From: Liolophura sinensis
Taxonomy: Eukaryota > Mollusca > Polyplacophora > Chitonida > Chitonidae
Length of the DNA: 64,000 nt
Direction: 5' to 3'
NCBI RefSeq assembly: GCF_032854445.1
Contig: NC_088295.1
Span: forward strand, 80,320,028-80,384,027
The position numbers were made by a program, and so were the translations under genes. Positions 1 through 52,200 of the stretch are shown in pieces. Position 1 is the stretch's first letter. Each line of letters opens with the position of its first letter. The notes under the pieces were generated by a model, which was given only the letters and a program-made list of their open reading frames with translations, had not been told where the DNA came from and ran no database searches.

Positions 1-144
1 AATGTTAACTGGTTAAATTAACACTAATTTATTAATATTTCATACAGCACTTGACTGTACTCATACAGTGCAACCCTTGTAGTAGTGGCAATATTTTACA
101 CAACCATTGTACTCCACAGCAAACACAGCTATTGTTATACTCAC

Positions 145-3100
145 AGACTCCTGCACAGTTCTAGCAGCAGCAAGCTTCTCTTCAAAGTTCTTCTTCATTT
201 CCTCCATTTCCAGCTGATTTTTTGCCAACAAACTCTCATACTCTTGACTCAACTCTTCTTTCAGACTTGCTCGTTCTAATAAATCAGAGAGGAAAACAGC
301 CGTGCAGTATCCACAATATGGAAAGTATTTCAAAGTAATTGAAAACGTAGAGAGCAATTGATCAAAAATGTGTAAAAAGATCAGTTTGACATAGATATTA
401 ACAAATGTTTCATCCAATATGAAGAAAAGTGTATTATTTCTTATTATACAGTTGGGTAACTGGTCCCACCTTCAGCTGCAATAACCAATATGTGTTTTTA
501 AAATAAAGAGCAAACATGTATAATGACAAATTTCAAGTTCGTATATTCCATTATATATGGAAAAATTCTCTGTTTGGCTTTATGTTCACTATATTTGGGG
601 GTAAAGAGATGGGGTGAAGACAAAAGAGTATTTTGAGTTCTTAAAAAGTAGTCAATTGGAGAGAAAGTAAAAGGTAAAATTGACTGCTAAAAATGTCAAA
701 AACAATCGCAGTTTATGTATATCTTTCAAAACAAAACAAAGTCACATTGTAGAAGATTACAAGGTAATATGTTAAAGACTTTAAAGCAAAAGACAGATCA
801 AAAGAGAATTTAAGAAATTATGCAAAGCGTATCAAATCTGTGATTTAGTCATTAGGCTATATGCTGAACTAAAAGTCCCATATTATGCCTTGACAGGGAT
901 GTCACAGGGTTCACACAAGTATTACTAAGTATTTCTTATTTGTTGACATACAGTGGTGTATCAAACAAAGTCAATTTCCCTGTTCTACATGTATCCAAAA
1001 GAGCACCATGATGAAAAGTAAAGAATGCAGGCTTGCAAATTAAACACAGAGAAACAGTAGATTACTGATTAAAAAGGAAAATGATTGTATTCACAGCAGG
1101 CAATTACCCGGCAGTAGATAATCCTTCTCAGGAGTGGTAGCTAGAAAACACTACAGCCTTTATAAATAGGAATAAGTAAACAGTGAAGTAAAGTTCTACA
1201 GCCTGTTTAATTCACACAAGTGTGAGAACTCCAAATGTAGTCTCATGGAAAAATAACTCGAAAATACTTTAAGGATCAAATCAAGTACGTCAGAAAAAAA
1301 GGTCTAGTATGCTCAAATAGCATCCATTAGCTGTTATTTCCACATTATTATAGAGACTTGTCTTTACCAATGTCGAGTATGTTACCACCACCTACCCTCC
1401 TCTGACATGTCATCATCGTCCTCATCATCTCCCTTGATAACAGTCATGTTACCAGACTCCATCATCTTCTTCAGCCTCTCATTCTCCTCCTGCAGCTCAC
1501 GGATCAGAGCCGCGGTCGGGTCCTCGTTCACCGTGGCTGTAGTTTTTATCTGTTTAGCTCTGTCAGCTGATGGACACAAGTACATGCACATCCATTATCA
1601 AAAGTTTTAATACATGCAAATGGTGTACATAGATTTTTGAGAGAGTTCTTTTCCTTACTCAGATAAAAACACATGGAGGATTTACAAATCCCAATTTAAT
1701 TAATAAAATTTTAAATCTCCTACTGTAGCATCCATGAAAATAAAGGTTAAAAATTATATTGACACCAGGCCAACCTGTGCTATTTCCTTGCTCTCACCTC
1801 TCAGTCCTGAGCGCCATGCGAGATAGGCAGTAACAAGTGCCACTTTTGGTGTCTGGTATGGCCTGAGTGATCCCAAATCTCCCAACTTTGAGGTGCATGG
1901 ACACTCTAGCCATCAGGCCACCAAAGTGGTCTTTGTTTATTTATGAGATTGTTGCTTAATGCAATACTCCAGAATTTTAAACTTAAATGGTAGTTAGTTT
2001 TATGAATGATCCTGGGATGCCCAGGATAAGCCACAAACATCTGGCAACTTACTGACAGACTTTCCCATGTGTGATGCACAGATATGCAATATTGGTCAAG
2101 GACAAGTGATCTTTCATGAACATTAGACTACTCAAACAGCCATACCAGTGTTGTCAATCACTTATTGTCACAAATATCAACGATCTCTTACTTGCTGTAT
2201 GAACAGTGTGAGCAGAGGAAAGATGAACTCAAAAGATACCAGACAGACACTAAAAATTCATACACATTTTACAAAAGGTTACATGAAAGATTTTCTGTTA
2301 AGGTTAAAAAGTATAAGTCAGGTAACAGTCATTCAATGGGATTCATTATATTTGCTAGATTAATATCAAACAGATTCACATGTACAATGGATTACAAACA
2401 AGTTAATCTAACAGCCATAGTTATTTTTGCATGTGTGAGCTAAATTAAGAAAGTTTTGACTGAAATCTTCCAGATATACAGCATTTACAAGAAAGTAAAC
2501 TTCTGTCCTCCCCACTAACTTACCATATCTTAGTGTTGACAGAGATTCTTCATAGTTGATGTCAGCAGGACTGATAGCAGCAATCTACAAAAAAGGCCAA
2601 ACAAAATGATGCCTTTGAAGAAAAACTAGAGAGGTTTTCCTTCTGAAACTGAAAGTTATCACAGTAAATGCAGGATGATGACCATGTTTTATTGTTCTAT
2701 AATTTTTTTATAAGTGCATGCAATTTGTGACTTATTATTGGCTGGAAATGAACTTTACAAATATGGACAATCTGTAAGTTGCACAATAAATGATGATTTG
2801 TACCCCCCCTGAACTTCGGAACATTGTGACGTTATAAAAGCGGCTCTGGTTCATGCATCCGACTGTAAACAATGCCACAAAAACTGTTACGTATTAGTAA
2901 AGATGAATGACAGGCACCTCCAATAACATTACGGTGTTGTAATGCCAAAGTCAAGAGACAGGAGAAATTGACATTTTCTACTTATAAAATGTTAGTATTC
3001 AAAAACTCCATGATCTTTAATACACAACAGCAGGAGAATCCTGTTGACATCGGTTATTTTTTTTTTGTGGAAATTAAAAGCACTGAAGCTGACCATTAAG

Positions 3101-6100
3101 TCCTTTTGCTTCTGCTCATTACACGTTTGTACTCATGGAAGAGTAACTGCTCAGAGCAATTTATACATAGAGAGGTGCAGCTGAAAGACAATTCTACAAG
3201 GCCTAAAATACACCTATTATGCATGCAAGTTTAAAAAAAAAAACAAGCATACAGGCACAAGCAGAGATAGTATATACACAAATGAAACAACACACAGTGA
3301 TGAAATCCACATGGAAACAACACAAACATACCATAATGGTTTTGCTGTTTCCCCCTAAGGCATTTTTCAGCAGTTTTGTTAGGACAGAATCTCGGAAGGG
3401 TACTACAAACAGAAGCATATATATGTTAGTCAGGCATTATAATAATTGAGATAAGTATGTACAGAACCATCATTTCAATGTTAGGAAGGTAATTCACCAC
3501 ACTATCAAGCCTCTGAAACTTGAGAAGCCAACTGATATCCCTTTTTTTTTAACTGTTAAAATTAGCTAATTTCTGGCATCTCTATTTAAAATGTATGTTT
3601 CTACTGGTGCTATCCTGGTGCTATTCTTAAAAATATGAATGTTTTTCTTTTGTTTTTTTTTTTTTTTTTTTTTTTTTGGATTACATGTAGCTTACCTCTG
3701 ACCCTCTTGCCTGAGCTCTGGTCAGCCAGGGCTGCTATACAGTTACCCAGACATGACAGAGACTGGTTGATGGCTGCCCCTTCCTTTAGTCGATCCCCAG
3801 TAGCTCCCGTGGAATCAGCCCTCTCACTACAAACACAGTCCTTACATCAGCACCTCAACTATATGCAAAAACTGCACATCTATTCTGTATTTATTTATTT
3901 ATTTCATTGTTGTTCAATAATGAATACTAATGAATATTTTACCTATACGAAGGCTGTCAGCTTTAATGAGAGTGGAGAAAACCGAATCGCTGGGGTAAAC
4001 CATGTACAAGTACTTTTTGCAAATTACTGACATTTTTGTTGTTTTGTGGAGTACAAACTTGAATGCCACATAGGTGGTAGATAACTGAAGTTGTAGTCCA
4101 GTTGTTACGGGCATGCCGGTCACTCCCGAAGACAACTGGAGTTGTGGTCCAGTTGTTACGGGCATGTCGGTCAATGCCGAAGACAACCGGAGTCGTAGTC
4201 CAGTTGCTACAGGCATGCCGGTCAATCCCGAAGACATATGGCCATCAGCCACTAGGACCAATTCAAAATGATCAGCTGGGTTGAATTTAGTTGCATCTTT
4301 CAAAGCTCTCAAGTATGCCAAGCTTAATAATTTCAGATGCCTTCACCTTGATAATCACCAATTATTTATTACCTGGCACTTTCTGGGTATCTTGTTATCT
4401 CATATAAGTTGATTTTACTGAATATTTTTTCATTACAAATAAAAAAATTCACACAAATGGATAAACAGACGTTGAATACATCTGTACAAAGAACAAACAG
4501 AATATATGTAAAACAGTGTTACAACTGAGCCTACTTTACAACAAACACCCAGGCCATTACCTTCCAGCCAAATCCACCAAGTTGATGACAGCTGTTTTGG
4601 CCATTTCTTCTCCTGCAGCATTCTTGCTCTTCTGAACAAATGTGATGCCAACAATCGTGTGGGCTCGGCTGTGTGGGACAATTGATGTAATATTAGATAC
4701 CTGTATATATATATAGGTGACCAAACAGGTAACCTGCTGAAAATGTAAATCATGAATATTCATTCATTGCATATCACAGCGGGCAACAGGAAATCTGTAC
4801 AAAACTTGCTAATATGAGCTTTAGCTAAAACCTAATTCACCCTTAGCATGTTTTCTGACAGCCTTCAGGTTAGCTGCCTTAAAGTACATGTAGAAACCTT
4901 ATATGAATACAAGTTACACCATTACTCAGCTCCAACCCATGATATGGATTCTTTAAAGAATGAAACCATTTTCATCAGTCATTTTTGTGTGATTCTGTGG
5001 TCAGCTTTTGACACTGAATGAAAAATGTACAGTTTAATTTATATGTATAAGCATACATACAATTTCACCATGTCCCCTTCCACTGTAAATACTTTTGCAA
5101 TAATTAATGTGCATCACTGCAACGTTCTGTTTCTTAGCATAAGGAATAGTCTTGCCATTTAAAATGTGAAATCATACACTTTCTATTTTCTATTTATTTT
5201 ATTTTTACAAAGCACTCAGGAATATTTCACTTATACAAGACAGCAGCCAGCAGAATTTTGGATGGAAATACACAACTATCTGCAGGTTGCCGTCAGACCT
5301 TCCCATGTATGACTTGATAGAAAGACAGCCTGAGCTGGACTTTGGCTTGAAGCAACTGCATTGGTGAAAGGCTCCTTTCCCATCCTTTCTGTTCTCTTTT
5401 TTCTTATTTTTTTCTTAGTAACTTATTTAATAATCTATACATATACATATTAGATTATTCAATGACAACAAAGTAACAGTGAGACTTCATAGTGAGCTAT
5501 TTTCAGATAATCTTTCCAGGTTAAAGTTTTAAAGGAAGCACAGGTAGCTTAATACAATCCCAGGTGTGTGCAACAACACACTGACCTTCATTATAGTGAG
5601 TTAGAACTTGAACATCTATTTTGAGGATGGACATGTACACATGTAGGCAACATGATGTGATGCATCAGGAAATCTGCTGCATAACAACAAATAATAGATC
5701 ATCATCCTGTCATCTGCTGATTATTAATGTTCATTAGCTACAAGTTTCAACATAGAAGTCAGCTTACAAAAAGTGATAAATATGTTGAAAATACAAAAAT
5801 GATCATTAGTCTTGACACATAACTCCTACAGAATGTAATGTTTTGTGTTATAAAGCAGAATGAGGAATATAGATTTTCTGCAATCTTGACAGGAGCTGGT
5901 GGAGATGATACAGTGAGATGTGACAGTTGTGTGGTGGTGTTTGTAATTACAAGCTAACTTCCCTGGTTAGTAATGGAGGGCTAATTCAAAGTGGTAACGA
6001 GGGAGTACAAGCTTCAGAACTGTTTGCTTGTCACAGATCAATAACTGTGTTAATACTGGGTTGGTCTGTGTTAGGCCTATCGCCATGGAGCTGTTTACAA

Positions 6101-9100
6101 CCAACCTTGTAATCCATGCCACACTTCACCTACAAAGTCTTTCTCTTTGCACAGTGTTCGGCAAAGTTCAATGCAACATGATAATCCATATGACATGTGC
6201 AATGCTCTTAGATTAACTTCGCCTCGTTCAAGTTTTAATGTTTATTTAATGTCACAGTGACTTGGTATTAGCGATATCATTATAAAATTGTTGGCTCTTC
6301 AGCAAACTGACAATAAAGGCAAGAGAGAAAGCTGTTGTCAGCCTTGGGTAGTCCATGAGCACCACTAATCCTCTAAAAGGGTGTCAATAAACTACACAGA
6401 TTTGACATTTACTCTGGTTATACAAACTTATGTGGATATAAGCTTAAATCTGTCATTGTGTGAAAAGTGCAGGCTTCCACTAACCTGCTGGTGGCGTTCA
6501 TGTTTGTCGCTGCCACAGTTCTGTTCATTGTCCCCTCATCCATTTTCTGTTCTATTTCAGCGTAACTTCCAACAGGGGTGACAATCAGTCCATCAGCTGA
6601 TTAGTCATGCAGAAAAAGAGAAGAAATAGGAATAAAGCTAACAAACGGGAATGCCATTGAAATGAAGACTTTAGTATTCTACTTACATATGTAGCCTTTA
6701 AAACTACTCTTTAGCTTTATTGTGAACAACCTTTGGTATCATCAGCCTTCCTGATAGTGTATTTCTTTTATAATCAGCGACAATAAAAGTAAAAGAAGAA
6801 ATATAGGTCCAGCTGCATATTAACATACCATAGAAGCCTTTTTTAGGGTGCTGTCTCACTTTGAGTCCACCTTTTTGTTTGGGTTTTGTGTCCAGGAGAT
6901 CTCTCACCTGCTCATTGTATATCTCCAGCATGCTAAATGTCACCTGAACAGAATACATAAAAACAAAAAGTCTCTATACTCTGACAAATAGTATAGGTTT
7001 ATACTCTTAGAGTACCTTTACATGGTGGATAACATAGAAGTTTCTTTATCATGTAGATAATGAAATAATTAACAGCTACATCGCAAGTCTAACAACATGT
7101 CAAAAGCACATGTAACTCCAAATCATTAATGAATGTACATGTGTATGGTGTATACTGCTCTGTACGAGGTTTCTGAGTTCCTCTGTTGAGGAAATGCAGG
7201 TATACCTCATATTCTGTGGTGTCTCCACCTGCTTTCTTCTCATCGATTCCCACAAACATCTGCTCACAAAACTGTGGCACAACACCTGAGAAAGGATAGG
7301 GTGAAAAATGACAATGCCACATAGGGATGAGTGGAAACTTGAGACTGAAATATGCCTTGTTTAAAGTACATTATTCTGTGCTAAATATAGGTTGTGTAAT
7401 GTGATGTATGGCGTACTTTAAAACAAAAATGAAAGACCAAATGAATGGTGGTGCGTCCATCATTCATGTGGTCTTCCATATATATTTTTACATATTACCC
7501 ACATATATTTTTCTTTCCATCATTTGCATAATAATAATAATATAAATAATTTATTAAATATAATAAAATTGTGCTTTCAGTACAACATGAATGTAACAGT
7601 GAAAACAGCCCACAATAATACATACCCTTGTTAACTCCATATCCCACAATGGACCAACTCTTCCCAGATCCTGTTTGTCCATATGCAAATAATGTGGAAT
7701 TGTAACCTTCCCAAGCATTTTTTAACACACCTACACCCAGGTCGTTGAAAACAGTTTTCTGAAATAGCAATTTAATGACATGAAATTTGAGACACATCAA
7801 ACATCTTTAGACTTTTCATTAATACATGCTACATATACCACTGCTTTCCCACCACAGCAAAGGCAAACTTCTCTACTCTTTGTCATAGTTATATGGTGGT
7901 CACGGCAGTGTACTCTTTTTAAAAATGCCAAAATTAATTTGATAACTTTTGCTTTATAAATGCAAAAAAATTAACATTTGGATAATGAATGGTGCATCTT
8001 GCATCATCACAAGGTAACATCGTCCTGTGAAAACCCTGAATGATGCACACCTATCAAAATCAACAATGATCCCACACTGACTATGAATATTTATTTGACC
8101 GCACTTGAGAATATTTCACTTATACCACGGCGGCCAGCATAATGGTGGGAGGAAACCATTTAGAACCAGAGGAAACCGACGACCATCCGCAGGTTGCTGG
8201 CAGACCTTCCCACATACAGACGAAGAAAAAGCCAGCATAAGCTGGATTCACAGCAACTGTGTTGGTGGGAGGCTCCTGCACCTCCTTGCCCCATGTGGGC
8301 GAGCTAACCCCCTTGGTCACATAGACTCCCCACTGACTATGAGTAACATCAAACTTGATTAAATGATTAAATGTGTATGTATCTGCATGTGTGTCCATTG
8401 GGCAACACTGAGATGAAGCCACCCACAATAATGTCCATTAACCAACACAGAGGCAGTGTATATTTAAATTCCAGCAGGTGTCGCTAGTGTAAAGTAGGAC
8501 CTTGAACCACTAAGAATGCAAAGGTATTCAACGTGTAAAAATTAAAATGCGTTGGTATCTCCTGAAACATTGTATCATCATGGATGTGACAACATAAGGA
8601 TGAAGTAGGATAAGAACAATGTCAACTAATTGGTGTCAAGGCCTTGCTACCAGGTGTTTGCCAGACAGATATTGATACCTGGAAAGTGTTCAACAAGTAG
8701 TAACAGAACTCAGAAAAAACACTTTATGCTGAAAGACACCCAGCTGGTGATACTCATACAACAGTATTAATCCAGCATAAGTATCATGGCAAAGTGCAAT
8801 TAAGCCAAAGTAATTCATTCATCCATTCACCATCATCATCATCATTATCCATCATCACCATCCCATTTGCAGCACACCTGGAAAGATGTCCATTCCAAAA
8901 CACCATAGCATGGAAATGTCTGAACTGATCAACACTAAGTGACACCATGCTAAACAAAGAGACGGATCATGGATCCAACACGTCTGATGTCCCACCACCC
9001 CTTCTCATAATAACGTTACTTTTCATTCCACTCCCGGCAAAAGCAATTGTGACGTCATTACGTCACAGAAATATTGATCATTTGTAACCAATGTGTGGGA

Positions 9101-11248
9101 CATCCAGATGACCTCTTTGCAACAATACCGGTGATGCTTATGATGGGTCGCTAGCTCGATCTTGATTGACAGTTCGGAATAGCTATCAGTTCACCAATAC
9201 ATGACTGAAACACTGAAAACAAAACATGTACATCTGCAAAATGCTAGAACTGAAATTTCTGCCACCACTTTTCAGAACATTCATCTGAGGAGATTCCAAA
9301 TCACTGCTGCTTTCATGTGCACTTACCTGGTCGCAGAACTTTTTGCCATTAGGATGGCTTTTGTCGGCCCCATAGTACCCATCAGGGCCTTCTTTGGAAC
9401 CATCGTGGGACCAGTAACTGTAGTCAAAGCTGAACTTTTTGGGCTCCTCAGTGGCACTGGGGTCAGTTATGCATGTCTGACCACCATCCATCTCTATAAT
9501 CAGCTTGGCATTGCGCTCTCGTTCTCGCCTGTTGTGGGAGCTGTTAAGGGTCAAACTCATATCAGTATTTCTAGTCGATGCTTCATGTTGCTTTGGACAT
9601 CATTCTTACTGTTATTGCCTTGGATAGCACTTTCATCTCGTATGCGTGTTATACAAATGTCAGACTTGAAGCTTATATATATATATACCGGTATATATCT
9701 TTTATAAGCCATCACTGCTCAGAAATTGTAATGCAACAAAAAAAAAACAAACAGCTGTTTTGGGTGTTTGGATGGTGAGGTATTTGGAGTATATTATGAC
9801 ATTGTGTTCTACTTCTTTCTGAGGGCATCAGCATGAAATGCATCCCACGGGCAAAGGCAGGCCAATCTACAACATCACTTGTTTACCAATGCACTAATGC
9901 TTTAATAATTTATGATAAACTATTTTTTAGTACTAAAGAGGAGATAACTATGAATTCATCAAGATATGTTGTCTTTCATATTCTTAAATTTAGTGAAATT
10001 TTGTCATTGTAAGTTTCCTGTGTTCAATATTATTAACAATTAGTCCTTGTCAGAATGGTGTATAAATTACATAACTTAAAGAGGTCAATGTCTGCATAAT
10101 TTGTTGAAAGTGCATGTTATTTATTCTGTGTCTGTTGGTGTTGTAGATTTGACAGACTTCACTGCCAAGCTTCTGAAGTACTTCAACAACCACTGTTAAC
10201 CCACATGTGCAAAACAATAGCACTAAGTAACTCCCTCCATGCTATCTCCCACAGTACAGGCTTAACAGTTGCCTCCCAAATAGTTTGCAAGTCACATACA
10301 GCTAAAGCAAAACAAACAAACAAAAAAGAAAGACAGAAAAGAAAAAAAAAACAGTGTGTGTTTTTAGGTCTTAGTTAGGTCTACTTGAAGTTGAATAGCC
10401 CTATTAATTTATCCAACATCGATGGTTCCTCCCATGAAAAACTTTTACATGAAGATTTTTCTCCAAGCTCACCTGGCAGAGAGCAGGTCCATTAGCCTAA
10501 TGACTGACGTTATATGTAGGCTATAGGCTGCAGGTATATACATGTATTTATAGCAAACGTTTCTGTTTCATGAGAGCCACCTTAGGTTTACATAAACTAT
10601 ACAGGACAGAAAAAAATAGTAATAAAAGCCCGACCAAGAAACTGTGGTACATGCAGTCCTGAATGTGCAGCACGCACAATACATTTCAAGCTGAGACACA
10701 TATTTTCATACACGTACACTGCATAATAGGTTAATTAACACTGAATGCATTGCAACTAAGACATGCATGCGCTTATTTTTTTTTTTTTTTTCATACTAAA
10801 ATAGCAACTAGCTGCTTTTTCTTCTTGGCCTACCTGATGCATTTCTTTTCCAATTCATCTTCTTGAGGGGAGGGGGCTCGCCCCCTCCCCTCACTCGCTC
10901 CCAGTCCCAGGCGAGGTTGTCTTATACAAGCACCGACCAGCAACGTGGGCTGGAGTAATTGTCCACCCACCGCACTTCAGCACTGCAGATACATAAACTA
11001 TACTAATCGAACGATAAAACTTGATAGTCTATCTGCCCAAACACGTACTAAGACCTTTAACCCAGATATCTAAGATTTATGAGCTATCTACCACAGGGAC
11101 TGACCTGCTGTTCAGTTTGGCATATCAGTTGTCAGTTTGCCATCAACCGAAATCAAAACTGGCAAAATTAAAATATGAAAAGCAAATTATTGAAAAAGGA
11201 TATGAAAGGCCTGACTCGAACCGCAACTTTGACGTTTTCTTCAGACAT
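145..11248 (-). CDS. Kinesin-3 family motor, KIF28-like (5' part, 12 exons)
   Basis: ATP-driven microtubule motor. Coding exons in transcript order: 11204-11248, 9327-9533, 7626-7758, 7206-7285, 6829-6943, 6485-6596, 4561-4668, 3696-3826, 3332-3402, 2524-2584, 1396-1566, 145-275. The frame is continuous for 455 residues and continues beyond the left edge. The start [15 protein letters not shown] is a typical kinesin beta-1 strand. The P-loop GQTGSGKS is near residues 111-118, switch I NATSSRAHT near 226-234 and switch II DLAGSER near 263-269, followed by [12 protein letters not shown]. An acidic linker and an E/K-rich helix (about residues 400-455) look like neck and coiled coil. The SSRAH form of switch I and the N-terminal spacing point to KIF28 rather than KIF1, by recollection of the family. 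FHA and tail domains would lie outside the window. Every intron is GT-AG except the first, which is AT-AC. Confidence 0.88.
1752..1935 (-). mobile_element. tRNA-derived SINE, family 2 (old copy)
   Basis: Inverted relative of the copy at 63281. It shares the segment around a CCAAAGAC/GTCTGGTATGGCCTGA core and ends at the right with a degraded tRNA-like head (ACACTCTAGCCATCAGGCCACC). It sits in a kinesin intron. Confidence 0.65.
1936..2095 (-). mobile_element. Degenerate SINE-like repeat, family 3
   Basis: Carries an ACTCCAGAATTTT tail motif and the block CATCTGGCAACTTACTGACA, then TTTCCCATGTGTGATGCACAG. The same order recurs at 25030, 42712 and 44190. It abuts the family 2 copy. Confidence 0.45.
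3653..3677. repeat. Poly-T tract
   Basis: Homopolymer of about 25 T in a kinesin intron, near the donor of exon 3696-3826. Confidence 0.9.
3890..3995 (-). mobile_element. SINE family 1, degenerate 3' fragment
   Basis: An ATTTATTTATTT start followed by decayed AATATTTTACCTATACGA and GGAGAAAACC blocks matches the tail of the family 1 copies at 14000 and 29934. Confidence 0.5.
4085..4240. repeat. Three-copy tandem repeat, about 51 bp
   Basis: Three diverged copies of a unit built around GTAGTCCAGTTGTTACGGGC, then ATGCCGGTCAATCCCGAAGAC, in the kinesin intron between 3827 and 4560. The short reading frames across it are by-products of the repeat. Confidence 0.75.
5186..5372 (-). mobile_element. 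SINE family 1 copy (diverged)
   Basis: Contains CTCAGGAATATTTCACTTAT, a CAGCCAGCAG block, GCAGGTTGCCGTCAGACCTT and AGCTGGACTT in family order, and lacks a clear tRNA-like head. It lies in a large kinesin intron. Confidence 0.75.
8091..8305 (-). mobile_element. SINE family 1 copy
   Basis: Contains GAGAATATTTCACTTATACC, CGGCGGCCAGCATAATGGTG, CCATCCGCAGGTTGCTGGCA and GGTGGGAGGCTCCTG in family order. It is truncated before the tRNA-like head. Confidence 0.85.
8820..8868. repeat. CAT/CCATCA-rich simple repeat
   Basis: Short imperfect (ATC)n tract in kinesin intron 2. Confidence 0.7.
9050..9065. promoter_or_regulatory. Palindromic CRE-like double site
   Basis: A full palindrome TGACGTCA (9050-9057) is followed at once by TTACGTCA (9058-9065), in kinesin intron 2. 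It matches CREB/ATF-type bZIP sites. Function is inferred only from the motif. Confidence 0.4.
9534..11203 (-). other. U12-type (AT-AC) intron of the kinesin gene
   Basis: On the minus strand the intron opens ATATCCTTTTT (11203 downward), the U12 5' splice-site consensus. It ends with a branch-like CCCTTAAC (9543-9550) about 10 nt before the terminal AC (9534-9535). Joining at these points gives VRVRPF followed by [10 protein letters not shown] in frame, as expected for a kinesin. I see no GT donor in this exon that gives the same join. Confidence 0.85.
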
Positions 11249-22257: not shown

Positions 22258-25200
22258 CTGGTGAATAAAAAAATCACAGACATCCATCACATGATGTACA
22301 CACATGACCTTTGTAAATAAAGTGCTTCAACCACTGAGTTCAGGTTAGCTGTACATTTTAATGTATCAACCACTGACTGCATGTTAGCTGCACATTTAAA
22401 TGTATCATCCACTGAGTGCAGGTTAGCTGTACATTTCAATGTATCAACCACTGACTGCAGGTTAGCTGTACATTTTAATGTATCATCCACTGACTGCAGG
22501 TTAGCTGTACATTTTAATGTATCAACCACTGACTGCAGGTTAGCTGTACATTTTAATGTATCATCCACTGATTGCAGGTTAGCTGTACATTTTAATGTAT
22601 CATCCACTGACTGCAGGTTAGCTGTACATTTAAATGTATCAACCACTGACTGCAGGTTAGCTGTACATTTTAATGTATCAACCACTGAGTGCAGGTTAGC
22701 TATACACTTAAATGTATCAACCACTGACTGCAGGTTAGCTGTACGTTTCAATGTATCATACACTGATTGCAGGTTAGCTGTACATTTCAATGTATCAACC
22801 ACTGACTGCAGGTTAGCTGTACATTTTAATGTATCAACCACTGAGTGCAGGTTAGCTGTGCATTTTAATGTATCATCCACTGACTACAGGTTAGCTGTAC
22901 ATTTTAATGTATCATCCACTGAGTGCAGGTTAGCTGTACATTTCAATGTATCAACCACTGACTGCATGTTAGCTGTACATTTCAATGTATCAACCACTGA
23001 CTGCAGGTTAGCTGTACATTTTAATGTATCAACCACTGACTGCAGGTTAGCTGTACATTTTAATGTATCATCCACTGACTGCAGGTTAGCTGTACATTTT
23101 AATGTATCAACCACTGACTGCAGGTTAGCTGTACATTTTAATGTATCATCCACTGATTGCAGGTTAGCTGTACATTTTAATGTATCAACCAGTGAGTGCA
23201 GGTTAGCTATACACTTAAATGTATCATCCACTGACTGCAGGTTAGCTGTACATTTCAATGTATCATCCACTGATTGCAGGTTAGCTGTACATTTCAATGT
23301 ATCAACCACTGACTGCATGTTAGCTGTACATTTTAATGTATCATCCACTGAGTGCAGGTTAGCTGTACATTTTAATGTATCATCCACTGACTGCATGTTA
23401 GCTGTACATTTTAATGTATCATCCACTGAGTGCAGGTTAGCTGTACATTTCAATGTATCAACCACTGACTGCAGGTTAGCTGTACATTTCAATGTATGAA
23501 CCACTGACTGCAGGTTAGCTGTACATTTTAATGTATCAACCACTGACTGCAGGTCAGCTGTACATTTCAATGTATCAACCACTGACTGCAGGTTAGCTGT
23601 ACATTTTAATGTATCAACCACTGAGTGCAGGTTAGCTGTACATTTTAATGTATCATCCACTGACTGCATGTTAGCTGTACATTTTAATGTATCATCCACT
23701 GACTGCAGGTTAGCTGTACATTTCAATGTATCAACCACTGACTGCATGTTAGCTGTACATTTCAATGTATCAACCACTGAGTGCATGTCAGCTGTACATT
23801 TCAATGTATCAACCACTGACTGCAGGTTAGCTGTACATTTTAATGTATCAACCACTGAGTGCAGGTTAGCTGTACATTTAAATGTATCATCCACTGACTG
23901 CAGGTTAGCTGTACATTTTAATGTATCACCCACTGACTGCAGGTTAGCTGTACATTTCAATGTATCAACCACTGACTGCATGTTAGCTGTACATTTAGAT
24001 GTATGAACCACTGACTGCAGGTTAGCTGTACATTTTAATGTATCAACCACTGACTGCAGGTTAGCTGTACATTTAAATGTATGATCCACTGACTGCAGGT
24101 TAGCTGTACATTTCAATGTATCAACCACTGAGTGCAGGTTAGCTGTACATTTTAATGTATCATCCACTGAGTGAAGGTTAGCTGTACATTTCTATGTATC
24201 AACCACTGAGTGCTGGTTAGCTGTACATTTCAATGTATCAACCACTGAGTGCAGGTTAGCTGTACATTTCTATGTATCAACCACTGACTGCAGGTTAGCT
24301 GTACATTTCAATCAAACTGCGCTATTATATTTGAGTTTTTCCTATGAAATGCTCAACTTTTTGTGACGCAAATAAATTTTACCTGAATATTTATTCTTTG
24401 TGTCTCTTAAATTGTCTACATACCTAAAATTTTTTTATCTCTACTACTGTAAAACAAACTTGTACAGGGACTGCTAGTATTGCAGTCTATTGCGTGCCTT
24501 ACAGGTTATAGGCCAAATCAAATTAAAGCAAATCAAAGATTCACAACCTGCAACAGAAATGAAATACCTTTTAGATTTCGCTTTATCCATAGGATTTGGG
24601 GTCTTCTGAGAAGTTTTTGTAGTCTTCTGTTTGAGTTTCTTTGCTGATTTATCTCCCTTAGATATTTCAGCCTTCGTCATCTTTGCTTTTGTTTGAAGAA
24701 AAGATGTCAGCTTGTCCAAGGGCGCAAACTTTTCTTCCTCAGTGAGCTCCAAACTCTCTGATATCAATGCTAAATCCTTTGCACTTAGGTCAGTAGGTAT
24801 TCGCCAGAAAGTCTCCTGAAATCAAGATAAAATCTCTCTGCAGATAGGGAGAATGACTATAATGCTTGAAACACAAAATAGATCCAACCAAAACAATTAT
24901 GTTCAGGAAGAGGGGAGGTGGAAAGACACACAAAATAATACTTAATGAATTTGTAACAGTTCTTGTGCTTTATGTCATATGAAATATAGTGATATTTTTC
25001 CACTGTTGAGGTGCATGATAGTTTTCAGCATCATGAGAGGCCAGGGACTTATTTATTTCATTACGGCTTAAAGCCACACTCAAGAACTCAAAGTCAGCTT
25101 TTGTGAGGAAGAAAGTAAATTGACAAGCGTAAACCACCAACCCAAGTTCATAAAAACTTTCCCGCATGTTATGTACACCATACTGGTGGAAGACAAGATA

Positions 25201-34200: not shown

Positions 34201-37200
34201 CTTAGTTAAAAATAAGACCAGCCCAAAACCTTTATCAGATCTGTATCTTATCACTGTCAAAAAATGTATTAAACTTTCAATTTATTATGAGGAAACATTA
34301 AGGGTGAAAAACTTAGATTGCAAAGTTTTAATTTTCAAAACCGCAATATTGGCGATAGTGACCAGTAGAAGAACATGGGACTTGATGTGTAATTTATCAT
34401 GGTCAGGCTGTGCCAAGAACTTACTCTGATGAAGTATGTTACATGAACAAGGCCTGTAATCCTCTAAGGTTCAACCAGTACAGGGTTAGTAACTGATATA
34501 TATTTGCATGTATGTTGCACATGAGGGTAATTATCGCAGCTAACTAACTAAATAACTATCATCATATTCATTTTTATTTCTCACCTGGAGAAAAAAACTA
34601 CTGCTTTGCTGTTTTAGATCAACACCACCTGAACTTCATAGTTGAGATTTAAAATCTGTAGCTTTCCAAACCCTCTAGCAATAAATGTATCAGTTAAAAA
34701 TATTGGCACTAATATACCATCAAACATGTACAGGCTTTGATTACACAGTCAATAGTGTCAGTCAAAAGTTACAAAACCTTTAAAGCTAAAGCTATGACAG
34801 CTGTAAAAAACAAACTTGTTTCAAACTACAAATACAAATGATGTAATATGAGTAAGAGGATCAAGTCAAATCTCCATTGTGCCAGCACAAAAGTCCCCAA
34901 TCCATATAATGATGAACAGAGCTATTGAGGGGTGGGGGCACATCATACACATGTGGGTTTTATTCCCAGATCTGGGCTCACCACAAGGTAACAATTAGGA
35001 TATAGTTGAAGGTGAAGTTTATATAAGGACGGGAATCATAGCAAAACAATCCATGGCGTCCTGACAACTAAAAACAGCCTTTAAAAGCAGTCTCTACAGC
35101 AGGCCGAGGATGAGGTGAAGTTTTGAGTTAGCAGATGATCCAAGTAAGTTTGACATGAATGAAAATGTCAGGACAAATCTTTCAGAGATCTTCAGTGCGG
35201 TTTGTCCGGACTCTTGTTTAGGATATGGGGCAAGTGGTAAGCAGGAAGCGGTCACATCCTCTATCACAATGCTGCCTTACCAGCACACTCATTAGGCCCG
35301 GTCGACTTCCTCTGCAGGAACCTGCCTACCCCACACCATAACCACCACCAAAACATGAGCTCTTACAACAACTCAGGAAGTCCAGGAGCCAGTAAAACAA
35401 CTCTTAACACAGATTTGGAGCAGTTCAGCTCTGGTGAGGACAATATAACCAAGCTTGGTGTAGGGCAGTGCAGCAGAACTGATGCATGCTAACCAGATCA
35501 GTCTTAAACAGTGCCAGGTGTACCTTCCACAGGAGACAGATACATCTAGGTGGATAATTACTTCATCTGAACACCCCTACGAGTACATTCCAGCGTAAGC
35601 AAAAGGATTTATGTGAAGAAACATTATTTATGAGGACAACAATTCCTGTGACAACATGATGTGAATTTTGCAAGACAAAAGGCTTGTGCAAGACAATTCT
35701 GAAACAATGTACAACTGAGGACCAATCCGGATGCCATCAAGGACCATCCTAGCAGAAAAACATTTACACAAGGACTTTTAATTCTACCTATTCTGGAAAT
35801 TGTGTTAGTTATGAGTGCAATATATTTATTTCAAAACTTTTTTACATTCATGAAGAGCAATTAAGCTGAAGTCCAAACTTCTGCTCAATACATTCCTGAA
35901 GAACTGTTCACAGGGAAAAATCATGGCAGATGTGTTCATGGCCCTAAAACTAAAGGTTGTGTTTTTTATTGTTTTGTTGTCTAAATTTTCTGCAGGTTGT
36001 CCACCTGAATGCAAATGTGGACATCAGAAGGTGGACTGTTCTAACAGACAACTGGACACTGTGCCGAAGTTTGGTCCAGAGCTGCAACGATCGGTTTATG
36101 TGGATTTGCGGACAAATTCTCTTGAAGAATTGAAAAGGGGCAGTTTCCAACACCTGCATAAAACACAAACCTTAATCCTACAATTCAACATGATCAAAAA
36201 TATTGATGAAGGAACATTTGCCAATATGTCGGCCTTAAAGACTCTTGACCTCAGCGGAAACCAGTTTAAATCCTTACCACAGGGCATTTTTAAGCCCCTG
36301 ACAAAGCTGCACTCGTTGGATTTGAGTCAGAACTACCTGACAAACGTTGATGGTGTCTTGTCTTCGCTAACTAGCCTGTATCGGCTTGACCTAGGTCACA
36401 ATAACCTGGCTGCTCTGACTGACACGACCTTCCCTGACCTTCAAGGTCTCATGTACCTGATGCTTGGCAACAACAGGTTATCTGACATCAGCACAAATGC
36501 CTTCAGCCCCCTTACTAAGCTGTCCTACCTGGTTCTAAAAAACAATCCCTTGTATATAGTGGATAACAAGTTTGTGAATAATCGGCGCATGTCATATGTT
36601 GACTTGACAAACTGTAAACTTCAGACGATTCCAAAAGGTTTACCATGGGTGCTGCGCTACCTACAGTTGACTCAGAACAATATCATCTATATAAACAAAG
36701 CCTCCTTGAAGGCATACAACTATGTGGCGGTTGTTGTCTTGGACCAGAACAAAATCCAGTCGGTTGAGCCAGGGGCCTTCTCCCACATGGTTTACCTCAG
36801 ACAACTATGGATGAATGGCAATAAACTGACAAGCATTCCAGAACAACTTCCTCTTGGACTTCATTTCCTCTACCTGGATGCTAACAATATCCAGAGTCTT
36901 CATGAGGACATATTCACTGATCGCTCCAAGCTTCTCACCTTCTCGGTCAAGGGGAATCAACTACACCACATCTCTGCCAAACACTTCAACAAAATGTCCG
37001 ATGTAACAAAGCTCTACCTCGACAACAACAACCTGACAGAAATTGAAGACTTCACTTTCAAATCTCTAGGGAAACTTCAAAAACTGTTCATTTCTCGCAA
37101 TCCACTGAAGAAACTGTCGCGGTACAGCCTTTTTGGATTACGGCAGCTTAAGTTTCTTGAGCTTGCCTTTGTAACGACAGATGTAGACATTGATGACATG

Positions 37201-40200
37201 ATTTTCAGTAAAACACCCAACCTCTCCACCCTTGAGCTTCAGTACAGCAGTGACTTGGCACAAAAAATCTGCAATTCACAGATCATTCTCAAAACTCTGA
37301 CCAATCTGACAGACCTGAATCTGATGAGTGCAGAGTTATCCACCCTTAGCCCACTGCTGCAAGAAGAACTTCCAAATCTGGAACAGCTACAGTTAGCAGA
37401 CAACAAATGGCACTGCGACAAGGCGCTTCTCTGGCTGAACCACTGGATGAGGCTTGCCAAAACGCTGTTTGTGAACAAAATGGATGTTAAATGTTTCAGT
37501 CCTCTAGAGCTCCGAGGGAAGGTGATCAGTTCCCTGTTTGACTCTCAGTTTGTGCCGGTTACTACAACGACCATGACCACTGTCCTATCCAGTACGAGAT
37601 CAGACCAACAGGTATCCTCCACACCGCTGCAACCACTGACCACTGTGTCCAGTACCTCACCTCCTGTACAGACCACAACTCAGCATCAGCCTCAAATCAC
37701 AACTCAAGTAAGGACTCCTGCTGCAACAACAACTGTCACATCCAAGGAACCTAAGGTAAGTAATGTGACAGGTTTACTTGAGGTAAAATATAAGTAGAGC
37801 GTGAAAGACAACAGAACTGCAGCATGACTTTATGACTTTCCTTTCAATAGGTCCAGACATTTGGTGTTTTTAATTGTTACATAAATTTCCTCTGACTTAC
37901 TTTGTATTTACTTATGCTTGTCATTTTAAGATTCAGGTCTTTTAAATTCATAGGCACAAGGCAATCCATCATAAAAACACTTTATGGGGCATTCATACAT
38001 GTATACAGAGTGGGAAAACATCATATCCTCAACACTATGCCCACAGATGTCCATGGTGATCAATTAAAATCCTTTTTGTGAATGGCACAGTAACTTCATA
38101 ATACAGCGCTAAAGAGAACAACTGTATACAATATGTTGATCTCTAATTCCAGATAACAAGTGCCTTCACTACAGGCTACAGAAGACATGACATCACTACG
38201 AAAACTCAGAAAGTTGCTGTTGCCACGACCATCACAACCACAACAACAGAAAAAACAACAACAATGAGTCATCTGCAGCGAACAACGAGTGTGTTCACAA
38301 GAACTGGAAGATTTACAAAGACCATGCCCACCAAATACAGAAGTGTTAAAAAGTCTCCATTATTCACATCAACTCAACACTACACAATAACTACTGAAAA
38401 AGGAAGTGCAAAGCCCAATGAAGTACCCAGGATAACTACCCCAAAGCCATCAAGTTTAACGATAACTCACCAAGTGAAAACAACATCTGCAGGAGATACT
38501 GAGCTAACCACAGTTTTCTCCCTTCCAGAGAACTCTTCATCTTCAATTCTTGCAGATTCAGAAAATTTACAAGAGGAGGAAGAGGAGGATTCTGGGACAA
38601 TTACAGCCATAGCAACAAGCATTTCTGTCATTCTCCTCCTGATTATTCTCATTATTATCGGATATTTAGTATTCCGATACCGTCGAAATCGCCTCATATA
38701 CCACCGTGCAATTCACTACCAACAACACAGTGATATGATGTACTTTATTACCGTGTCAGAATCCGAGACTAAGCCTATCAAAGGTACGAGTCGCTCAGAG
38801 CGGGGTTCTGTATCCTCTGTCACCAGCCATGACATCACTAATGAGGAAGGAGGAATCAAGGTGTATCACTGGGATGGGGAACAATAAGGACACAGGTGTT
38901 GACAATCACAGGTGTTGCCGTTGACGAGCGATACTGTTTTGATATACATGCTACAATATATACGCTATGACAATGAAAACCTAACATTTTGTCTCTTAAA
39001 TAACCAGGTTTGAATTCTATTCACACCCACGCATGTAATGAAAGTGTGCAGGATATCTCTTGGATATAAATATTTATGACTTCTAGAATAGCGTATGTCA
39101 TTGCACCAATTCACATATATAATAACACATTACTGCAGTAATGTTGGGAGAGGCAGAAATGGCTATGCACTATTTTCTAAGCCCAGAGTTTAGCCTGAAA
39201 CAATGAACCAACAGGAGATCAGCCTATAGATTCTGTATGGTAGCCAAGACAACTGGCTTTGATTCATGACAAAAGATCAGCGAGGGCAAAATGTCATATG
39301 GTTTTGGTTTCCTCAGGCTTGTGTCAAAGCTGTACAATATTGTATTACATTTCTTTGGGTTAAAGTTTCCTACAGCAAGATTTATTTTGTTTTTCTTACT
39401 TCCTGTTATTGTTTCGCCAACCGACAAAAGGGGTACGGATTACATGTAGGTCCTAAGTAGTCATTTAAGAGGCGTGTATCAGATTGTTTTTTTTTTTTGA
39501 AATGTCAGAAATAGTTGTCAAAAAACTACTGGTAAAGCTAATTGGATTTATTTATAAGAAGATATGAAAGTGAATTTTAAGAGACATATTGTGTACGCTA
39601 ATAACAGTAGCATATTATTTTGCAAATTGGAAACCATGAATATTTTGTTTTCAATATCCATTAAATATGAATAAATTGGTTTCTTTAGTCTTGGTCTGCA
39701 AAAAGACAATTCTGATATGGGCAATCTTTTATTGACTACCCGGCTGTTTCCAGATATATAAAGAACTTGTGTGTGTATGTATACAGAGATGTGTGTAAAT
39801 ACTGTAGTCTGTATATTTCAAGCTGAATGCTTAAAATTTAAGGCCTGACATTAAGCAAAGAGTTACTGAAATTGTAACTTTTGTAGGTTTTCTTCCTTCA
39901 TCACTTCGTACTGATAGAAACGTTTATCATATGTATATAATATTGTCAACATTTATGATAATACAGGGCACAATATCTTGTTACAAGACAATCCCACAAT
40001 TGCCTTTATTATACATGGGGCCAAATACGTGGCTACAATCTATGTACTGTAGAAAGATGCCCCCATGTGTAATTTGTAATTTGAACCGACTTGTTTCACA
40101 CAGAAATAAAATTTAGTGTTTTACTTGACCTAAGTTTGCCTTATTTGTCAAATCAGGTTTAGCAATTCACACAAGTCACTCATGCATGATAAAAGCAATT

Positions 40201-49200: not shown

Positions 49201-52200
49201 TCTTTATAATTGATAAGCATATTTATAAGAAAAATCATTAAAAATGGTTTTGCTTTTTGCTACGTATGCGGAAACACTGAATGTTCCTTGGAGTCTCCAT
49301 GACCTATTGGTTAACATGCTAGCCCAACACGATGACCCAGGAGCCTCTCACCAATGCGGTCAGTGCACCCAGTCCAGCTCACGCCGTCTTCTCCGGTCGT
49401 ACATGGGAAAGTCAGCCAGCAGCATATCGATGGTGGTGGGTTGCCCAGTTTCTACTTACCAGAATTCATTGTATCCTTGTAAATGAGATAAGTGAAATAT
49501 TCTTGAGTACGGCATGCGACATCCATCAAACAAATAAATCAAAGGTTCCATAAGAAGTAAAAAAGCTGACCAGTTTTAACATGTCACCCATCTTTTCTGT
49601 GAGCACTGCAAACAGTTCCTCATCCACAAAAGCCTGGAAAAAACAAAAGCATGTACTTGTCAGTTTGTTAACCTTTTGATGTGAAGGATTATTGAACTAA
49701 GCCAGTAGATGAATTATTACACGAGTCATTGGTTTTATGTTAAAACTTTATCTTAGAACACTTCACTAATTAAAACATCTTGTACAAGAAATCAATACAT
49801 ATACATATAAATAATAAAACAAAAACAATGCAATAAAAAGAAGTATCTTGCTTGCAGCAAGGTAGACCCTTGGCTAGGCTTTATAATCTTCTTCGACAGC
49901 TTGACGCCACAGCTGTTTTGACAATCAATCCTTCCACCTGCGGATATCAGCCAATGATTGCTTAAAATGTCTGTTGTAAGTGTGGATTTCATCGTTTTGA
50001 AGATGAATGCAGGTAGGTTCAGAGTTACTTTCTCGACACGTCAGAAAACAGTAATACACAGTGCTGTGAAAAGTGCTGATGTGCTGTATCAACAGGCAGC
50101 AGAAAGTCACTGTGCTACCCGGCAATAATGATGATACCAACAGGCAGCAGAAAGTCACTGTGCTACCAGGCAATACGGATGATATCAACAGGCAGCAGAA
50201 AGTCACCGTGCTACCAGGCAATACGGATGATATCAACAGGCAGCAGAAAGTCACCGTGCTACCAGGCAATACGCATGATATCAACAGGCAGCAGAAAGTC
50301 ACTGTGCTACCAGGCAATACACATGATATCAACAGGCAGCAGAAAGTCACTGTGCTACCAGGCAATACGCATGATATCAACAGGCTGCAGAAAGTCACCG
50401 TTCTACCAGGCAATACGCATGATATCAACAGGCAGCAGAAAGTCACTGTGCTACCAGGCAATACAGATGATATCAACAGGCAGCAGAAAGTCACTGTGCT
50501 ACCAGGCAATACGCATGATATCAACAGGCAGCAGAAAGTCACTGTGCTACCAGGCAATACGCTTGATATCAACAGGCAGCAGAAAGTTACTGTGCAACCA
50601 GGCAATACGCATGATATCAACAGGCTGCAGAAAGTCACCGTGCTACCAGGCAATACGGATGATATCAACAGGCAGCAGAAAGTCACCGTGCTACCAGGCA
50701 ATACGCATGATATCAACAGGCAGCAGAAAGTCACCGTGCTACCAGGCACTACGCATGATATCAACAGGCAGCAGAAAGTCACTGTGCTACCAGGCAATAC
50801 GCATGATATCAACAGGCAGCAGAAAGTCACTGTGCTACCAGGCAATACAGATGATAGTGGAAAAGGTCAAGTAGCCAACGTAGCTTATCTTAAGTTAAAC
50901 CACTAATTTCTATCATGTCTATTTTGCCACAAAATTACTGCATCATAATAACCTAATGAACTAGTCCATGTTTTAATTTTTGGCATCAACACTTAAACAC
51001 TTAACACTATGGCTCCTTTTTGGCGGCTGGTCTATGATGTTTTGAACATATTTTCGCACGAGTAACTAAGGTGCCAGTCTGTTAAGTGGAACTTGATGTT
51101 CCGTGAGCAATGTATATATGAAGGAAAGTTTGTCACTGACACAGAACAGGACTAACGTGCCCATTTTTCCTGATTCTGTGAGTTCTATTGACTTTGGAAA
51201 GGTGTTCTGAGGTTTGTTTGGAACATGGGACTATTTTCTACTGGAAAAAATTGTAAGATTTAAAAAAAAAAGATTTTGTGACATTTCTTTGCCTCTCAAA
51301 ATGCACTTTTATGTCATTTAGGGAAGTTCAGTAACTTCAGTAAGTTAAACAAAGATGAGAACAACAGACAGAGCTATTCCTTCCTGGTCTCACATTTCCC
51401 CTGAAAACAAGTAATTCCAGTACCTCTTTATATCCTTGTAAATGAAATTCCACCTCAAGATAATGATTGCGGATTGTTTTGTCATCTGGTAGATGGTTGT
51501 TAAAACACAGAATGCTGGGCTGTGTCAGGTTCACCATTAACCTGCAAACATGAAGTAAAATATCCAATCAACACAGAGCAACATTTAAATTACCCATTAT
51601 ACGTACACCCATACACTTCTCAAATACTGGAAAATATTAATCATATAGACCTTACATGTATTATTTGTTATGTTTGTGACGACAGACACATGGTCATGTT
51701 GGTCAATTGATTAAGGTGGACCCAAAAGTTGCTCCTGTAACAAATAACGAACCAGGAAAAAAACGCTTATATATGCTCTAATTAAACCATAGTTAAGTAA
51801 AACCTAACGAGGCTCAACCACAATTCCTATAGTTTATTTGAATTCCCAGGGGTTCCCTGTTGCAAAAGTGATTAGCACACCAGCACGGCGCAATGACCCA
51901 GGAGCCTCTCACCAATGTGGTCGATGTGAGTTCAAGTCTGGCTCATGCTTCCTCTCTGGTCGTATATGGGAAGGTCTGCCAGCAACCTGCAGATGCTTGT
52001 GGGCTCTCGTTTCCTCCCACCATAATGCTGACCGCCGTCGTATAAGTGAAATATTCTTGAGTACAGCACAAAACACTCATCAAATAAATGAATATTTGAA
52101 TTCCCAGAAAGTCAGAAAAAGAACATGTATCAATTTAATCAGCTATTCTATACACATCCAAGAAAGTGGGTGAGAAAATATTTCCACATTCGAACATTAC

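Follow-up and report, generated by a model that had tools for sequence, protein, structure and literature searches.

U12-type introns with AT-AC termini occur in animal genes, for example those for voltage-gated ion channels, and the passages describing them (PMC2831892, PMC3584512, PMC10639083) give them an ATATCCTT 5' splice site, a CCTTAAC branch core near the 3' splice site and a terminal AC, at a position common to paralogues with GT-AG in one copy. The distance from branch point to 3' splice site has an optimum of 11–13 nt and either A can serve as the branch point, according to a passage of PMC3584512, while part of PMC10639083 describes the usual bias of minor introns away from phase 0. 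The first intron of a kinesin gene in the window, by which we mean the whole 64-kb stretch of DNA analysed, is alike in its 5' site, branch core, AC end and shared position but differs in its host, a kinesin-3 of the KIF28/KLP-6 branch. It is a phase 0 intron, counter to the usual phase bias. Judged by its sequence, intron 1 is almost certainly a genuine U12-type AT-AC intron which would be removed by the minor spliceosome. The class itself is already known, and intron 1 adds to it a kinesin-3 host gene.

Intron 1, its signals and its host gene

The kinesin gene lies on the minus strand, with intron 1 at its 5' end, and exits the left end of the window. Its features, in window coordinates, are as follows.

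11204..11248, minus strand: exon 1, coding part (15 residues, ending in phase 0), aligning to the KLP-6 and KIF1A N-termini
9534..11203, minus strand: intron 1, predicted U12-type AT-AC, 1670 nt, from its signals and the same site in two paralogues
11193..11203, minus strand: predicted U12-type 5' splice site ATATCCTTTTT, 9/9 to RTATCCTTT
9543..9550, minus strand: predicted U12-type branch-site motif CCCTTAAC, from its exact CCTTRAC core and its distance
9534..9535, minus strand: 3' splice site AC, by direct reading; 0/12 nearby in-frame GT-AG alternatives restore the protein
9327..9533, minus strand: exon 2, ending KKFCDQ, donor GTAAGT, by direct reading and frame
1396..7758, minus strand: exons 3–11, motor domain and neck, placed by hand; Pfam kinesin 1–327 complete

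On direct reading, intron 1 (11203–9534 on the minus strand) starts with ATATCCTTTTT and ends in AC, with CCCTTAAC near its 3' end followed by 9 nt. Exon 1 ends in ...GTCAGGCCTTTC and the intron opens with ATATCCTTTTTC, while at the other boundary the intron ends in ...GACCCTTAACAGCTCCCAC and exon 2 opens with AACAGGCGAGAACG, all read on the minus strand. Exon 1 is joined to exon 2 in frame, with a phase 0 junction that separates Phe from Asn in VRVRPF/N (the slash marking the junction), and the joined peptide is the conserved kinesin-3 N-terminus VRVRPFNxRE, aligning without gaps with 7wrg (KLP-6) and KIF1A. Both the U12-type AT-AC intron at 9534–11203 and the exact in-frame join had been put forward in the original prediction; the coordinates proved exact to the base and the join restores a KLP-6/KIF1A-like N-terminus.

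The 5' splice site matches RTATCCTTT at 9/9 positions, a score reached at 1 of 127,800 window positions on both strands, that of intron 1. The branch core CCTTAAC is an exact match to CCTTRAC, 10 nt separating the second A of TTAAC, and 11 nt the first, from the intron end; the branch 9-mer matches TTCCTTRAC at 7/9, its first two bases being AC, not TT. CCTTRAC at the right distance upstream is found for 252 of 127,900 window positions (0.2%). ATATCCTTT was found once in 64 kb, with 0.90 expected, and CCTTAACN{6,14}AC four times, with 3.22 expected. Neither motif is rare alone in 64 kb, and what goes beyond chance is their position, because both stand at a codon boundary restoring the conserved protein and recur there in two paralogues.

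In a set of 36 introns from four kinesin genes, RTATCCTTT is matched at 9/9 by the three U12-type introns and at no more than 7/9 by the other 33. The branch 9-mer reaches 7/9 in all three U12-type introns but also in 3/33 ordinary introns, and its score was dropped as a discriminator. With regard to a polypyrimidine tract, 11 of 17 positions scored in intron 1 are pyrimidines, compared with 8–15 in the 33 ordinary introns of the same genes.

In the proposed mechanism, ATATCCTT(TTT) at the 5' site would base-pair first with U11 and later with U6atac, the CCTTAAC branch core would pair with U12, and the use of AC as the 3' splice site would connect the first strand of the motor core with the remainder. 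Failed splicing would leave a 26-aa peptide, read-through into the intron meeting a stop after 26 aa in the window gene, 81 in C11 and 19 in C7, and the sequence thus agrees with the original prediction that the start of this motor depends on minor splicing. Genome matches over the Rfam cut-off were obtained for U11 (2/2), U12 (4/5), U4atac (1/1) and U6atac (2/2), and this set, together with the same intron in paralogues, backs the minor-spliceosome reading. Four of the U12 snRNA matches lie within 18 kb at C1:65318678-65336263, where two are near or just below the cut-off, forming a small cluster with possible pseudogenes; the fifth is at C12:21412562. Base pairing can be drawn between the 5' sites and both U11 and U6atac, as well as between the branch sites and U12. 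Duplex energies were discarded as evidence, being too permissive, since 40 to 1193 of 5000 random window sites, depending on the pair, pair equally.

Eleven motor and neck exons were placed by hand at frame-keeping splice sites, and of the ten introns among them intron 1 is AT-AC and the nine others are GT-AG. With exon 1, the motor covers Pfam kinesin positions 1–327 at 334.6 bits. A version beginning with the first Met of exon 2 loses positions 1–35 and covers 36–327 at 322.7 bits, and given these similar scores a model lacking exon 1 would be accepted as a kinesin in which nothing looks wrong. The original prediction that standard predictors would miss exon 1 is plausible on these figures. 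Gene finders limited to GT-AG could drop the AT-AC join carrying the first strand of the motor. Compared with solved structures, the motor scores 480 bits to 7wrg, 381 to KIF1A, 344 to KIF13B and 313 to KIF14. An FHA domain follows the neck (PF00498, 30.1 bits, over the cut-off) when exon pieces are joined by hand, one piece alone giving nothing, and its best solved match is 7wrg 451–553. Two tail pieces, in which MBS and MATH domains were sought, gave no family in one and a weak C2 match, below the cut-off, in the other. By these similarities the window gene is classed as a KIF28/KLP-6-like kinesin-3; we take KIF28 to be the name of the animal orthologue group and KLP-6 to be its equivalent. 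PMC9314371, with an abstract on the full-length C. elegans KLP-6 structure, contains the term 7WRG, and a passage of PMC10945585 calls KLP-6 invertebrate specific.

Elsewhere in the window, long tandem repeats open on both strands (13-residue units) at 22290–24191 and 49928–50903 are probably minisatellites. A leucine-rich-repeat ectodomain (Pfam LRR_8, LRRNT) at 35854–37794 on the plus strand is followed at 38147–38884 by a Thr-rich stretch and likely transmembrane segment, on which a RIFIN match is probably due to composition.

The same position in paralogous genes

A genome-wide protein search with exons 1 and 2 returned six places, the window included. Two of the other five carry U12-type 3' signals ahead of exon 2, CCTTGACCTTTTTGTAC/AAC (NSRE) in C11 and CCCTTGACCAACTCGTTAG/AAT (NDRE) in C7, and their first exons were found by scanning the upstream DNA. 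The C11 intron is AT-AC and the C7 intron GT-AG with U12 signals, both in phase 0 and at the same codon boundary. Of the remaining three places, C6_627 shows a U2-like acceptor and the other two lack an intron at the site (a KIF1-like gene on C9 and an OSM-3-like gene on C6). The U12-type introns measure 1670, 2060 and 466 nt in the window, C11 and C7, respectively; a recent duplication was considered and rejected, there being no alignable body among the three. A pattern joining R-x-R-P-[F/L] to RTATCCTT had 4 matches in the 609-Mb genome, three of which are the window, C11 and C7 genes, and 1 match in the reversed control; the fourth (C7:16292414) gave no kinesin reading. These sequences assign the U12-type intron 1 to the KIF28/KLP-6 branch. 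They also indicate that GT-AG in C7, compared with AT-AC elsewhere, is a subtype switch, an event which a passage of PMC2831892 reports for 36 intron clusters.

An N-terminal exon was located for nine kinesin-3 genes, in which intron position is expressed in nucleotides from the F/N boundary (offset 0).

Offset 0, U12-type by signals, phase 0: window gene (AT-AC), C11 (AT-AC), C7 (GT-AG)
Offset +6, U2-type, phase 0: C6_627, FSQ/REK, donor GTCAGT
Offset +8, U2-type, phase 2: KIF14-like (C13), KIF16-like (C6), C9_74 (C9)
Offset +10, phase 1, U2-like donor only: KIF13-like (C3)
No intron at the site: KIF1-like (C9)

The KIF13-, KIF14-, KIF16- and OSM-3-like labels are provisional, being assigned from the look of the N-terminal sequences; the KIF1-like label is backed by grouping with KIF1A at a support of 98/98. 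The original prediction had suggested KIF1 orthologues for comparison of the intron, a comparison that failed in this genome, the KIF1-like gene having no intron at the site. C6_627 (C6, about 627,613 and 631,766) is KIF28-like, reads VRPFSQ/REK and has a 4152-nt intron with extensive internal repeats. The +8 phase 2 introns are at C9:740690-741588 (C9_74, KIF28-like), on C13 (KIF14-like) and at C6:16530553 (KIF16-like), and this shared U2 intron is possibly an old kinesin-3 intron adjoining the U12 site. No exon 2 was located for the C3 gene, and the offset of +10 is that of the donor side alone; the C3 N-terminal exon probably belongs with C3 motor exons 67 kb away.

When the DNA upstream of four kinesin loci was scanned locally for the motif, an N-terminal exon was located for C13 and not for C3, C9 and C6:16178. 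The C3 and C9 exons were found subsequently by a sequence pattern, which had 12 matches compared with 20 in a reversed control and proves nothing alone; 9 of the 12 read as kinesin N-termini from their surroundings. Matches on C10, at C11:3193378 and on C416 gave no convincing kinesin reading and were left out. At least one further locus resembling kinesin-3, C6:16172639-16178337, had no N-terminal exon within 5 kb and stands outside the offset series.

Class change, independent gain and other readings

In the motor trees the window gene, C11, C7, C6_627, C9_74 and KLP-6 form one group, with support of 93/98 to 100/100 depending on the rows used; in the first tree (8 rows) a group of four was obtained at 81/90 with C6_627 unplaced. 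When every column was used, KLP-6 and the U12-type genes came together in 915, 708 and 846 of 1000 bootstraps (12, 11 and 10 rows, respectively), values which were 358, 230 and 434 of 1000 with the first 45 columns dropped. In the case with 358, C9_74 grouped with C6_627 in 655 of 1000. The AU test did not reject C9_74 and C6_627 held together (p 0.349), these two with C11 (p 0.218), the same three with the window gene (p 0.244) or C9_74 placed outside the KIF28 group (p 0.07). A tree uniting C9_74 with the KIF14-like and KIF16-like genes was rejected (p 1.4e-10). An attempt to settle the direction of class change by tree failed, as the grouping varies with the first 45 columns and the AU alternatives stand.

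The occurrence of U2-type introns 6–10 nt from the U12 site suggests that one ancestral intron changed spliceosome and shifted its boundaries. Specifically, an ancestral kinesin-3 U2 intron at +8 (x-x-AG/G-E, phase 2) could have become U12-type in the KIF28 branch with its boundaries moving 8 nt upstream, a course of events which we regard as rather unlikely. An old U2 intron at +8 is favoured by the fact that C9_74, the KIF14-like gene and the KIF16-like gene have this position and phase 2 in common. AG/G is a favoured intron insertion site. U12-to-U2 conversion is the more frequent of the two directions, with both types present in 87 clusters, and a single case of U2-to-U12 conversion is reported, according to passages of PMC2831892. 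If true, the change from U2 at +8 would be such a U2-to-U12 conversion, accompanied by a boundary shift. Simple boundary sliding in either direction requires that 8 nt of intron come to encode the conserved N-x-R, which favours a precise loss followed by regain, or a route other than simple sliding, which a passage of PMC10639083 regards as very rare.

Independent gain of the three U12-type introns at a favoured site, as opposed to inheritance from a common ancestor, is consistent with the lack of alignable bodies among them, with the nesting of two U2-type KIF28-like genes among U12-type ones in some trees and with the best tree, in which the window gene, C11 and C7 alone are not one clade, a grouping that the AU test nevertheless did not reject (p 0.105). 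However, phase, codon boundary and class are identical in 3/3 genes, and part of PMC10639083 describes minor-intron gain as very rare, with at most one case found according to a passage of PMC2831892. We consider independent gain highly improbable. Under common inheritance, intron 1 would be older than the split of the three KIF28-like paralogues, in one of which it has GT-AG termini together with U12-type signals.

Two further readings concern splicing of intron 1 itself, and both are given almost no credence. An ordinary GT-AG intron could connect exon 2 to a different upstream exon, the AT-AC appearance being coincidental, and either motif alone is indeed expected by chance in 64 kb. A U2-like CAACAG/G lies 5 nt downstream of the AC, but none of the GT donors searched would join to it in frame. 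When donors from exon 1 to 11000 were combined with acceptors at 9570–9480, 0 of 12 in-frame, stop-free GT-AG joins kept VRVRPFNxRE, all 12 deleting conserved residues, so that the joining which the original prediction had named as its refutation was not found nearby. In addition, two paralogues carry the same signals at the identical codon boundary, and in one of them, C11, no AG is placed, by eye, to restore the protein. Removal of the AT-AC intron by the major (U2) spliceosome, for which a few sodium-channel introns give precedent in that U2-spliced AT-AC introns exist (passages of PMC2831892), can be dismissed with similar assurance because the same source gives such introns a G at +5, whereas intron 1 has C at +5 in a perfect ATATCCTT, a correctly spaced U12 branch core and a paralogue with GTATCCTT...AG at the same site.

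Comparison with known systems

In the literature searched, by titles and the beginnings of abstracts, no minor intron was reported in a kinesin-3 gene; minor introns of human or other orthologues may well be catalogued in supplementary intron lists, which lay outside this search. The KIF1B passage of PMC4394429 concerns a microRNA. With respect to the host, C. elegans KLP-6 (7wrg; abstract of PMC9314371) is the best solved match for both the motor and the FHA domain of the window gene; KLP-6 is a nematode gene to which the window gene is likened by motor and FHA, not by intron structure.

One codon neighbourhood in one genome thus holds two U12-type AT-AC introns, one U12-type GT-AG intron, U2 introns at +6 (one) and +8 (three), a donor at +10 (one) and a gene with no intron, these classes being assigned from sequence signals. 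With the kinesin-3 series, comparisons among animals could test for subtype switching, class switching and boundary shift. A known counterpart of the series is the fly CG3294/URP intron, a U2-to-U12 case described in a passage of PMC2831892, which is alike in that U12 and U2 sites lie close together in one family. No junction carrying both the U12 and U2 signal sets was seen by eye among the paralogues here. The fly intron is a twintron with both signal sets, as that source describes it, whereas in the kinesin-3 series the two classes are split among paralogues.
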